Shown here: piece by piece, positions 2-4,164 of the stretch
Position numbering within the stretch: the stretch's first letter is position 1
How the letters are laid out: each line of letters opens with the position of its first letter
Origin: Candidatus Kryptonium sp.
GTDB lineage: Bacteria > Bacteroidota > Ignavibacteria > Kryptoniales > Kryptoniaceae
Assembly (NCBI GenBank): GCA_025060635.1
Contig: JANXBN010000001.1
Coordinates: forward strand, 248,001-312,000
Length of the DNA: 64,000 nucleotides
Direction of reading: 5' to 3'
Program-made: the position numbers and the translations under genes
Notes under the pieces: model-generated
What the model was told of the DNA's origin: nothing
What the model saw: only the letters and a program-made list of their open reading frames with translations
Databases searched by the model: none

Positions 2-2914
2 CAAGTTGATGAGGAAGTTCCTATAAGTAAAGATTTTAACACTTTTTCCTTGCCAATTTCAGTTGGGGAGAAAATAAATTACGAGCATTTTGTTTCCTTT
101 CTCGCTAAAAGTGGCTTTGAGAAAAAGAAATATGTTGAGTCAAGAGGAGATTACAGCACAAGGGGAAGCATAATTGATGTTTTCGGGTTTATAGGCGAAT
201 ATCCTATAAGAGTTGAATTTTTAGACGATGAAATCGCATCAATAAGGGAATTTGATATTTTCACTCAAAGATCTCTGCGCAATCTGAATCGTACGATCAT
301 AGTTCCGAAAATTAGGAACGCAAATGTTGAGATGATTAAGGTTTCAAAATTATTAGATGGTTCTATTTGCGTTGTTGAAGATAAAAATCTTGTGGTTCAA
401 GCAATTGATGAAAACATATTTGACGAGATCAGATGTAGAAAACTTATCAATATCTTACGACTTGAAGCTGGGGATTTAAGCGAAAATGTTATTGATTTTT
501 CCTCAAAGGCACAGCCATTTTTCAACAGCAGTATGACCCTTTTTTCAGATGAAGTTTCAAGGTTGCTTAAAAATGGTTTTGAGGTTTATCTCCTTTGTGA
601 TGGAAAAGATCAGATGGAAAGAATGAGAGATCTTGTTGAGGAGACAATGGGATTTGATGAAGCGATGAAGGTTCGTTTTATGGAAAAATCGTTAAATTTG
701 GGCTTTATTCTCACAAAAGATAGAATTGCTGTTTTCACAGAGCATGAGATTTTTAACAGGATAAAAGCGAGAAATTTCCTGAAATACCGAAAATTTAAGG
801 GGATAACGCTTCACGAGCTTGATATGTTAAAGATTGGCGATTTCGTCGTTCATGTTGATTATGGAATCGGTAAATTTGCAGGGCTCCAAAAGATTAAGAT
901 AAACGGGGTTGAGCAGGAAGCAGTCCGACTTGAGTATGCCGATGATGGAGTTCTGTATGTGAATTTAAATTACATCAACAGGATAAAAAAGTATCGTGGT
1001 GAGGAAGGTGTTGTTCCAAAGCTAAATAAACTCGGCTCAGCGGAGTGGGAAAGGCTCAAAGAAAGAACAAAAGATAGCATAAAAAAAGTCGCAAGGGATC
1101 TGATATGGCTTTATGCAAAGAGAAGTTATGTGAAAGGTTTTAAATTCTCCCCCGATAATTACTTACAGAAAGAGATGGAAGCATCTTTTATTTACGAAGA
1201 TACTCCTGACCAACGAAGGGCAACAATTGAAGTTAAGCAAGACATGGAAAGCGAGAAACCGATGGATAGATTAATTTGTGGAGATGTTGGATTTGGGAAA
1301 ACTGAAGTTGCTATTAGAGCTTCCTTTAAAGCTGTTCTTGACAAAAAGCAAGTTGCGGTTTTGGTCCCCACGACAATTCTTGCACATCAACATTATAAGA
1401 CATTTACAGAAAGATTAAAAAACTATCCAGTGAGGATAGAGGTCATTTCAAGATTGATCCCAAAAGCAAAACAAGTGAAAATAGTTGAAGAACTTTCAAG
1501 AGGTGAAATTGATATTATTATCGGGACACATAGGTTGCTTTCAAATGATATCAGGTTTAAGGATCTTGGCTTATTGATTATTGATGAAGAACATAGATTT
1601 GGGGTTGAAGCGAAGGAAAAATTAAGGAAGATGAAGGTTAATGTTGACACTTTAACTTTAAGTGCTACTCCGATTCCGAGGACACTGTATTTTTCACTTA
1701 TGGGTGCAAGAGATATGTCAATAATTAATACACCACCTCCAAATCGGCTTCCGATAATTACAAAAATAATAACTTTGGATTCACCAAAATTTAGAGATAT
1801 CGTGAAGAATGCAATTTACTATGAGGTAAGCAGAGGAGGACAAGTTTATTTCGTGGTTGATAAAATTGCTGAGATTGAGGATATTGCAAAATTTTTGAAG
1901 GAAATCGTCCCAGAGTTAAAGTTTGATGTTGTTCACGGGAAAATGAAACCATCCGCAATTGAAAGGGTGATGTTGAAATTTCTTGAGCAGAAGTTTGACA
2001 TCTTGATTTCAACTAAAATAATTGAAGCGGGGATAGATATTCCAAATGTAAATACGATTTTCATTTACAATGCTCATACATTCGGTCTTGCAGAAATTTA
2101 TCAACTTCGCGGAAGGGTCGGACGCTCAAATAGACAAGCGTATGCTTATCTTTTGATACCACCTGTTGAAACGATCGGGACAAACGCAATTAGAAGATTA
2201 TCTGCGATTGAAGAATTCACAGAACTTGGTTCTGGATTAAATCTCGCTCTGAAAGATATGGAAATTCGCGGAATTGGGAATCTTTTTGGAAAGGAACAAA
2301 CGGGATTTATAAACTCTGTTGGCTTTGACCTCTATTGTAAAATCCTTGAGGAAGCGGTGGAGGAATTGAAAGCACAGGAGTTTAAAGATATTTTCAAGAA
2401 TGAGAAAAAGTTAAAGAAGAAATTTGATGCGATTGTTTCCGTTGATTTGAGCATTTTCATCCCGGATTATTACATTGATTCTGACTCTGAGCGTTTCAAT
2501 TATTATCAGAAACTATACGATGCTGAAAGCCTTGAAGAGATTGAGGCGATAAGAGATGAACTTGAAGATAGATTTGGAAAGCCACCTGAAGAAGTTGAAA
2601 ATTTAATTCTTGTTGCGAAAGTAAAGCATTTGAGCGAGAAAAACTACATTCAGCGAGTTGAAATAGGGAGGGATTATGTTGTTGTAAGTTTGCGAAATGA
2701 GGTGATGGAATCGGAAGTTTTTAGAGACATTGTTGATGTTTTTTCAAGAGGTGCAAGTGTAAAGTTTGAAAAGAGTGGCAAGGATATGAAGTTGTTGTTA
2801 AGATTTAAGTATTCAATTTCAGCAAGGCAAAATCTCGTGAAGTTCTACGGTTTGCTTGAAGAGTTATTCTTTCAATTTTCTAATAATGAAAGAAACCTCG
2901 CCGCCAATCCATAA
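2..2914 (+). CDS. mfd: Transcription-repair coupling factor Mfd (5' truncated)
   Basis: The reading frame is open from the window edge, so the start lies outside; about 970 residues are visible of a family usually near 1100-1150. Mfd removes stalled RNA polymerase and recruits UvrA to template-strand lesions. Visible in order are the end of the UvrB-like region (RGSIIDVFGF), the RNA polymerase interaction domain (GDFVVHVDYGIGKF), a RecG-like translocase with Walker A GDVGFGKTE near base 1280 and DEEHRFGV near 1584, the TLSATPIPRT motif, the LRGRVGRS motif and a C-terminal TRCF domain. The 3' end overlaps the convergent lexA-like gene by 51 bases. The identification is secure. Confidence 0.97.
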   Translation, partial: QVDEEVPISKDFNTFSLPISVGEKINYEHFVSFLAKSGFEKKKYVESRGDYSTRGSIIDVFGFIGEYPIRVEFLDDEIASIREFDIFTQRSLRNLNRTIIVPKIRNANVEMIKVSKLLDGSICVVEDKNLVVQAIDENIFDEIRCRKLINILRLEAGDLSENVIDFSSKAQPFFNSSMTLFSDEVSRLLKNGFEVYLLCDGKDQMERMRDLVEETMGFDEAMKVRFMEKSLNLGFILTKDRIAVFTEHEIFNRIKARNFLKYRKFKGITLHELDMLKIGDFVVHVDYGIGKFAGLQKIKINGVEQEAVRLEYADDGVLYVNLNYINRIKKYRGEEGVVPKLNKLGSAEWERLKERTKDSIKKVARDLIWLYAKRSYVKGFKFSPDNYLQKEMEASFIYEDTPDQRRATIEVKQDMESEKPMDRLICGDVGFGKTEVAIRASFKAVLDKKQVAVLVPTTILAHQHYKTFTERLKNYPVRIEVISRLIPKAKQVKIVEELSRGEIDIIIGTHRLLSNDIRFKDLGLLIIDEEHRFGVEAKEKLRKMKVNVDTLTLSATPIPRTLYFSLMGARDMSIINTPPPNRLPIITKIITLDSPKFRDIVKNAIYYEVSRGGQVYFVVDKIAEIEDIAKFLKEIVPELKFDVVHGKMKPSAIERVMLKFLEQKFDILISTKIIEAGIDIPNVNTIFIYNAHTFGLAEIYQLRGRVGRSNRQAYAYLLIPPVETIGTNAIRRLSAIEEFTELGSGLNLALKDMEIRGIGNLFGKEQTGFINSVGFDLYCKILEEAVEELKAQEFKDIFKNEKKLKKKFDAIVSVDLSIFIPDYYIDSDSERFNYYQKLYDAESLEEIEAIRDELEDRFGKPPEEVENLILVAKVKHLSEKNYIQRVEIGRDYVVVSLRNEVMESEVFRDIVDVFSRGASVKFEKSGKDMKLLLRFKYSISARQNLVKFYGLLEELFFQFSNNERNLAANP

Positions 2915-3493
2915 GTTTTTGTCCCCTTCATTGAATTTCAAAGTTTCGTAACCCCTGCTTGACGGAAGTAGGTAAATTTCACCGTTATCGTTTTTATAGC
3001 GACGGATTAGCCCTTCGCTACCAACCACGGCGAACACAATTGAATTGTTTTTTATGTTTTGATTTTGTGTTACGATAGCGATGTCCCCCTTGAAGATTCC
3101 ATCTTTTTGCATTCCATCATCTGGGACCTCAAGAGCAAATTGTGGGGAAAAACTAAACAATTTTGGATCAAGTTTGATAGTCCCACTCAAGTTGGCAAAC
3201 ATCGCTAAAGGATTTTGAGCATCAAATGTTGAAATTAAAGGTATTTCTTTAAACTCGTTATGTGATTCGTTAAGTTTAAAGTCGTTGATGTTTATGTTTC
3301 TTGACTTAAGATTCGTTCGCTGTATGTATCCTTTTTTTTCAAGCGACTTTAGGATTGAGTAGACGGCATTTGTTGATTTGAAGTTAAATTTTTTACAGAT
3401 TTCTCGTATCGTTGGTGGTTTTTGGTTTTCAAGCGTGTATTTTTTGATGAACTCAAGAATTAGATTTTGCTTTTCGGTTAGCGTTTTCTTCAT
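2864..3493 (-). CDS. lexA: LexA-family repressor lacking autocleavage residues
   Basis: A 209-residue protein with the LexA layout: an N-terminal winged helix (residues 1-65, TIREICKKF and STNAVYSILKSLEKKG as recognition region) and a C-terminal S24-type domain (85-209). Aligned by spacing to E. coli LexA, the cleavage pair Ala84-Gly85 is Ala92-Gln93, the nucleophile Ser119 is Gly127 (VPDDGM instead of xxGxSM) and the general base Lys156 is Arg164 (GLIRRY); the two 35- and 37-residue spacings are preserved exactly. Fold and DNA binding therefore look intact while self-cleavage should be impossible. ATG at 3493 is preferred over an upstream TTG because AGAGAGG sits about 6 bases before it. The 3' end overlaps mfd. 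Known family: SOS repressor. Inference: a non-cleavable or repurposed LexA, as in some cyanobacteria. Confidence 0.88.
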   Translation of the reverse strand: MKKTLTEKQNLILEFIKKYTLENQKPPTIREICKKFNFKSTNAVYSILKSLEKKGYIQRTNLKSRNININDFKLNESHNEFKEIPLISTFDAQNPLAMFANLSGTIKLDPKLFSFSPQFALEVPDDGMQKDGIFKGDIAIVTQNQNIKNNSIVFAVVGSEGLIRRYKNDNGEIYLLPSSRGYETLKFNEGDKNLWIGGEVSFIIRKLKE

Positions 3494-3527
3494 TTTCAAC
3501 CTCTCTGACCTTCGGTTTTTACTTGCC

Positions 3528-3559
3528 TCAATATACTGAACATTTGTTCAAAAATCAAG
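3528..3559 (-). promoter_or_regulatory. lexA promoter
   Basis: Read on the minus strand: TTG (complement of 3556-3558), 20 bases, then TATATTGA (3528-3535). This equals a sigma-70 -35/-10 pair with a 17-base spacer. It lies 35 bases upstream of the lexA ATG, and the spacer holds the LexA-type palindrome. Confidence 0.6.
3537..3550. promoter_or_regulatory. LexA box (GAAC-N4-GTTC type)
   Basis: TGAACATTTGTTCA is a 6+6 inverted repeat with a 2-base centre and fits the GAAC-N4-GTTC SOS operator known from Gram-positive bacteria and several other phyla. It sits between the -35 and -10 elements of the lexA promoter, the expected place for autorepression. Confidence 0.75.
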
Positions 3560-3638
3560 TGAGATATTAAATTTCTTTCAGGAAGATTTTTTGTAAATAC
3601 GAAATAACGCTTTTGGCGAGGCAAAATGCCATAGGGGC

Positions 3639-3668
3639 TTGACTGAATGATATAAAAACTTATATTTA
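3639..3668 (+). promoter_or_regulatory. dcw cluster (mraZ) promoter
   Basis: TTGACT at 3639-3644, a 16-base spacer and TATATT at 3661-3666 (TATATTTA extended). It is the only good sigma-70-like pair upstream of mraZ and would start transcription just before the MraZ boxes. Confidence 0.65.
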
Positions 3669-3675
3669 AAGTGCT

Positions 3676-3702
3676 GTGGTAAATTGTGGTAAATTGTGGT
3701 AA
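3676..3702 (+). promoter_or_regulatory. MraZ operator: three GTGGTA boxes at 10-base period
   Basis: GTGGTAAATT occurs at 3676 and 3686, and GTGGTAAAAA at 3696. Tandem GTGG-type hexamers spaced by 4 bases upstream of mraZ are the known target of MraZ, an autorepressor of dcw clusters. The boxes cover the predicted transcription start and leader. Confidence 0.85.
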
Positions 3703-3717
3703 AAAATTAAATTTTCT

Positions 3718-4164
3718 ATGTCGTCATTCAAAGGAAGTTACATATACGCAGTGGACGAGAAAGGACGCGTGAGTATCCCTGCAAGAATGCGGAAATATCT
3801 TTCGCCAGAAGCAAACGAGACATTTGTAATAACGAGAGGTACTGAAACTTGTCTTTTTCTCTTTCCGCTTGATGAATGGGAAAAACTTGAGAAAAGGTTA
3901 AAAGAATTAAATACATTTAATCCGCAACATCGTCTTCTGATAAGAATTCTTTTAATGTGGGCTGTTGAGGTTACGCTTGATAATCAATCAAGAATAATGA
4001 TTCCTAAAAATCTTCTTGAGTTCGCAAAAATTGACAAAGAAGCACTTATCATAGGAGCACTTGATAGAATTGAGATATGGAACCCGGAAGTTTTTAATGA
4101 GTATGTAAACACTCAACCTGAAAGTTACGAAAGCATTGCAGAAAAAGTTTTGGGATTAAAATGA
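3718..4164 (+). CDS. mraZ: Transcriptional regulator MraZ
   Basis: 148 residues with two SpoVT/AbrB-like DNA-binding halves: YAVDEKGRVSIPARMR near residue 10 and VTLDNQSRIMIPKNLL near residue 85. MraZ forms a ring-shaped oligomer, binds repeated GTGG boxes and represses its own dcw operon. Three such boxes lie just upstream. No clear Shine-Dalgarno sequence precedes the ATG; the upstream sequence is AT-rich. The stop overlaps the rsmH start (ATGA), so the two are translationally coupled. Confidence 0.96.
   Translation: MSSFKGSYIYAVDEKGRVSIPARMRKYLSPEANETFVITRGTETCLFLFPLDEWEKLEKRLKELNTFNPQHRLLIRILLMWAVEVTLDNQSRIMIPKNLLEFAKIDKEALIIGALDRIEIWNPEVFNEYVNTQPESYESIAEKVLGLK

Follow-up and report, generated by a model that had tools for sequence, protein, structure and literature searches.

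A LexA paralogue without a catalytic site beside mraZ in Candidatus Kryptonium, probably a self-repressing regulator

A 64,000-nucleotide stretch of Candidatus Kryptonium DNA (the window) encodes a LexA homologue in which the residues needed for self-cleavage have been replaced, and this raises the question of whether the protein is the SOS repressor of the organism, a damaged gene or a regulator of another kind. The explanation favored here, with good confidence, is that the protein is a catalytically dead, mraZ-associated paralogue of LexA that functions as a non-proteolytic, self-repressing regulator and is not the SOS LexA. The closest named relative of the protein is from Candidatus Kryptonium thompsonii (78% identity), which places the window in the Kryptonia lineage.

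The reading frame on the minus strand (Table 1) encodes 209 amino acids from its ATG start, or 211 if a TTG further upstream at 3499 is used. The lexA-like frame and that of mfd converge and share their last 51 bp (window 2864-2914), and a comparable overlap is present in congeners. Profile searches identify both domains of LexA, the DNA-binding domain (LexA_DNA_bind, PF01726; 73.5 bits) and the S24 fold (Peptidase_S24, PF00717; 62.5 bits), and the protein scores 142.4 bits against the NCBIfam lexA model TIGR00498, above its cut-off of 110.95. LexA_DNA_bind is the top N-terminal match, and the N-terminal helix-turn-helix is not of the CI type. In an alignment with E. coli LexA, A92-Q93 falls on A84-G85, G127 on S119 and R164 on K156, with the spacings of 35 (92 to 127) and 37 residues (127 to 164) the same as those in E. 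coli LexA (84 to 119 and 119 to 156). The Ala-Gly cleavage site is thus missing, as is the Ser/Lys dyad, the latter throughout the clade described below. This alignment confirms the preliminary description of the locus, which had read A-Q, Gly127 and Arg164 as replacements of the cleavage determinants at E. coli spacing; its further claim, that self-cleavage cannot be how the protein works, has good support from the sequence, and RecA-stimulated self-cleavage is accordingly predicted to be impossible. A structure model built from seven sequences (mean pLDDT 78; pTM 0.54, which is modest) has LexA crystal structures as its top structural matches, and its C-terminal domain aligns to the LexA S119A fragment with a TMt of 0.80. 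The model supports retention of the S24 fold and implies no mechanism.

Table 1. Features of the lexA-like gene, its presumed promoter and the adjoining mraZ region (window coordinates)
Feature	Position	Strand	Remarks
Dead LexA paralogue, 209 aa	2864..3493	-	HTH residues 3-65; S24 fold about 85-204; A92-Q93, D125-D126-G127-M128, R164
Presumed -10 (TATATT) of lexA-like promoter	3530..3535	-	Sequence reading; conserved in congeners
Putative operator palindrome TGAACATTTGTTCA (TGAACAAATGTTCA on - strand)	3537..3550	.	Kept in 7/7 genomes of the genus
Presumed -35 (TTGATT) of lexA-like promoter	3553..3558	-	Sequence reading; conserved in congeners
GCGTTAT/GCCGTTAT-type element between lexA-like and mraZ promoters	3595..3610	.	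Equivalents in f1, f2, f16, f29
Presumed mraZ promoter TTGACT...TATATT	3639..3666	+	Sequence reading; clear of LexA-like operator
Three GTGGTAAA repeats in 10-bp steps (3676, 3686, 3696)	3676..3703	+	In front of mraZ
mraZ	3718..4164	+	Divergent neighbour; first gene of dcw cluster

The window protein falls in an ancient clade of LexA proteins whose catalytic site is dead, and this clade is cleanly apart from 56 intact LexA proteins. Residues were typed in sequences fetched from searches of relatives, the class and the phylum, a subset of the survey matches that contains 64 dead sequences (57 genomes and 18 families, several beyond the class of the window) and 56 intact ones. Position 156 (E. 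coli numbering throughout) is Arg in 64/64 dead and Lys in 56/56 intact sequences, and position 119 is Ser in 56/56 intact sequences and Gly (37), Ala (24), Thr (2) or Ser (1) in dead ones (63 of 64 without Ser), these two positions being the ones that define the classes; position 117, which is independent of the class definition, is Asp in all 64 dead and Gly in all 56 intact sequences. The A-G pair is absent from every aligned dead member. In a careful tree (36 rows), a branch with support of 100/99, present in 100% of bootstrap trees, sets the dead group apart, and in a larger tree made by a quick method, 55 distinct dead rows are again divided from the rest by a single branch (SH-aLRT 99). 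Because the catalytic columns were kept in the trees and the root was not fixed, a single origin for the loss of autoproteolysis is likely but not proven.

Genomic context also differs between the two classes. Of 57 genomes with the dead gene, 44 have it next to mraZ-rsmH, where the dcw cluster starts, as against 0 of 51 for intact lexA (Fisher 6e-19, a value that is too small because related genomes are counted separately). At many loci the flank extends only ~1-1.5 kb, so that a more distant linkage of either gene type would have escaped notice there. Divergent orientation relative to mraZ-rsmH is found in families f1 (7/7 rows), f2 (the sister family; 11/14), f16 and f29 and, outside the class, in f34, f39, f44, f50, f53, f55, f57, f60, f62 and f65; linkage to mraZ was not seen in the available flanks of four families (f5, f8, f27 and f28). 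The GTGGTAAA repeats ahead of mraZ are presumably MraZ boxes. As the operator described next is ~90 bp from the presumed -35 of mraZ, direct control of mraZ by the LexA-like protein is not indicated by the promoter arrangement, and the link to division is a lead rather than a result.

A putative palindromic operator, written TGAACANNTGTTCA in the window, is located in the promoter of the gene itself, as in LexA. It occupies the 17-bp spacer between the presumed -35 and -10, at a position conserved across the genus, and on the minus strand reads TGAACAAATGTTCA in six Kryptonium genomes and TAAACAAATGTTCA in one. Its GAAC-N4-GTTC core is one that we take to resemble the Gram-positive LexA box. 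In 44 intergenic regions between lexA-like genes and mraZ, 43 TGAA-N6/7-TTCA palindromes are found versus 2.4 expected from first-order Markov shuffles, the expected value being a guide only since the palindrome criterion was picked after inspecting the sequences. The palindromes are commonly paired 31-34 bp apart; two genomes of f53 have them 22 bp apart, and one of f16 has them 41 bp apart. Family f2 carries AAC-N4-GTT sites instead (20 versus 1.7 expected), often 31 bp apart. Outside f1 and f2, 5 of 26 intergenic regions have no site by the TGAA-N6/7-TTCA criterion (one each in f65 and f60, two in f39 and that of genome G044 in f16); the regions from f65, f60 and f39 do show GGTGA...TCACC-like repeats. 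The operator is assigned to the dead protein because of its location and co-conservation, and the protein probably binds it; the placement between -35 and -10 suggests autorepression.

Few targets are apparent beyond this promoter, with no clear excess of sites. When sites with at most one mismatch are collected, the gene's own pair makes up two of three in genome G243 (1.9 Mb, 100% complete), two of three in G411 and two of five in G429. Derivation of a genome-wide regulon from the operator was attempted and rejected, as the 15 genomic sites of GAACNNNNGTTC are almost all within genes except for the one in its own promoter, and TTGAACANNTGTTCAA with at most two mismatches gives 49 relaxed sites versus 45 for the control in the window genome and no consistent excess in congeners. 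Another pattern yields 20 sites versus 11 for the control in the window genome, which leaves room for a small regulon.

The proposed mechanism follows from these features. The paralogue clade would have lost autoproteolysis, most simply once, but not DNA binding or the S24 fold. The protein would most likely act as a dimeric winged-helix repressor, with dimerisation, operator binding and repression all predicted, and by occupying its own operator between -35 and -10 it would hold down its own level (negative autoregulation). Since RecA-stimulated self-cleavage is predicted not to relieve this repression, release, if there is any, would have to come by another route: the repressor may be diluted, modified, degraded by another protease or bound by a ligand or partner.

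A further reading extends the best explanation rather than opposing it, namely that the S24 domain is a sensor (of a ligand, partner or modification) that steers DNA binding, so that the protein would regulate division or envelope genes, mraZ among them, in response to a signal. This reading is tentative. The D117 and R156 replacements are strictly conserved, unlike the outcome of random decay, mraZ linkage spans many families, and the LexA of Synechocystis, which is non-cleavable, has been proposed to undergo modification (PMC7567884). Against these points, the operator in the window overlaps only the gene's own promoter and the four families named above have no mraZ linkage. An evolutionary version, likewise tentative, is that an SOS repressor was duplicated long ago and one copy became a regulator that works without proteolysis, responds to a signal and is wired to dcw across a large part of the phylum, with Asp117 and Arg156 rebuilt for sensing or allostery.

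Improbable, in contrast to the paralogue reading, is that the protein is the organism's SOS LexA locked by mutation, with its regulon either permanently repressed or freed in some other manner, such as targeted proteolysis. In the window genome (a 97% complete assembly), this gene is indeed the sole LexA_DNA_bind gene and sole S24 gene found, the score exceeds the NCBI lexA equivalog cut-off, and recA, which the preliminary description had listed among the genes to be looked for, is present in this and all other genomes of the genus (7/7). These facts are outweighed by the position of the dead proteins in a separate group, found together with intact LexA in 17 genomes. The regulatory sites also speak against a locked SOS LexA: no dead-type or intact-type box with at most two mismatches occurs in ~400 bp upstream of recA in the seven Kryptonium genomes, and the genome-wide counts give no clear excess.

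Within the genus, just two of the seven congeners (G002 and G005, 78% and 71% complete) were found to have an intact lexA, with umuD and a gene for a Y-family polymerase downstream of it, and their intact copies cluster with the intact LexA of sister family f2 (support 100/89), which fits vertical descent. A protein search did not find intact LexA in the other five Kryptonium genomes, which are 93-98% complete and include that of the window, and the Y-family polymerase was likewise not found in these five, which also counts against a locked SOS LexA. The simplest reading is that intact lexA was lost in several Kryptonium lineages. The intact LexA box of the genus at lexA-umuDC is TAGACATATGTCTA or TAGACAAATGTCTA, unlike the operator of the dead protein. 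The earlier proposal that the SOS switch is rewired in this organism is not supported, given that the gene is an old, separate paralogue and that an SOS-type LexA (A-G/S/K) exists beside it in those 17 genomes, with a different box in this genus. The companion proposal that another LexA exists is borne out for relatives, by the two intact lexA-umuD-umuC loci, and not for the window genome, where none was found.

Several observations were made at these and other loci of the genus. Genome G004 (contamination 3%) has a second RecA (locus L102, G004:C3:1033-1815; open frame of 378 amino acids) near a contig start. In G005, a repetitive frame (FQSLTGSIHT...) at about 695-1150 of locus L104, upstream of intact lexA-umuD, is suggestive of a CRISPR array. 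The sequence TATAGACANNTGTCTATA, nearly the same as the intact LexA box of the genus, is present at position 1501 of L103, L105 and L106 (G002, G004 and G001, respectively), ahead of a gene for an ArsR-type regulator. The TAGACANNTGTCTA box found away from lexA-umuDC in G001, G002 and G004 has an ArsR-type gene downstream and was not counted as LexA-related.

Gene decay or an assembly error, which the loss of all three catalytic determinants might suggest, has a negligible probability and is already contradicted by the data, namely the identical state in every congener and the whole clade, the open reading frames, the strong purifying selection and the conserved operator. The possibility of a sequencing error had been raised with the original observation, and the relatives have now been examined: Gly and Arg at the Ser/Lys positions and the absence of the A-G pair are common to all seven Kryptonium genomes. 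The ratio dN/dS is 0.059, 0.070 and 0.108 for Kryptonium pairs and 0.014 for one pair from f2. The gene is intact and under purifying selection.

Overall, the window protein represents a variant of the LexA family, a usually mraZ-linked paralogue with a dead site that is probably self-repressing. Literature searches (mraZ with LexA; Kryptonia with LexA; Rhodothermus or Salinibacter with LexA) returned nothing relevant, and no link between a LexA-type protein and mraZ, in the library searched. Because the lexA model matches all 11 of the dead members scanned, an SOS response would be assigned in error to any genome whose sole lexA-annotated gene comes from the dead clade. The clade also offers a natural experiment on what the LexA fold can do once cleavage is gone, and it draws attention to an unstudied regulator that many bacteria carry where their division gene cluster begins.

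Compared with known systems, the window protein shares with LexA of the E. coli and Bacillus type (TIGR00498) the LexA winged-helix domain, the S24 fold and a palindromic operator in its own promoter, and differs in having no A-G pair, Ser119 or Lys156, in the Asp at 117, in its mraZ linkage and in that no SOS regulon is seen. The non-canonical LexA of Bacteroidetes, an S24-family repressor from a related lineage, resembles CI repressors most closely in its N-terminal domain and runs the SOS response (PMC8565304), whereas the N-terminal domain of the window protein is LexA_DNA_bind and its catalytic dyad is missing. Streptococcus mutans has another LexA-like protein, IrvR, which is RecA-independent but does cleave itself (PMC7101444), unlike the window protein with its missing cleavage determinants. 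LexA of Synechocystis PCC 6803 is likewise without Ala-Gly and the catalytic Ser, regulates non-SOS genes and is possibly tuned by phosphorylation (PMC7567884, PMC3091678). The shared loss of Ala-Gly and the catalytic Ser is a likeness in kind only, as the trees are without cyanobacterial sequences. The cyanobacterial protein has Gly-Gly and a Ser to Asp replacement, whereas the dead clade, which is old and from another phylum, has Ser to Gly or Ala and Lys to Arg, is found in some genomes alongside intact LexA and has a near-private operator.
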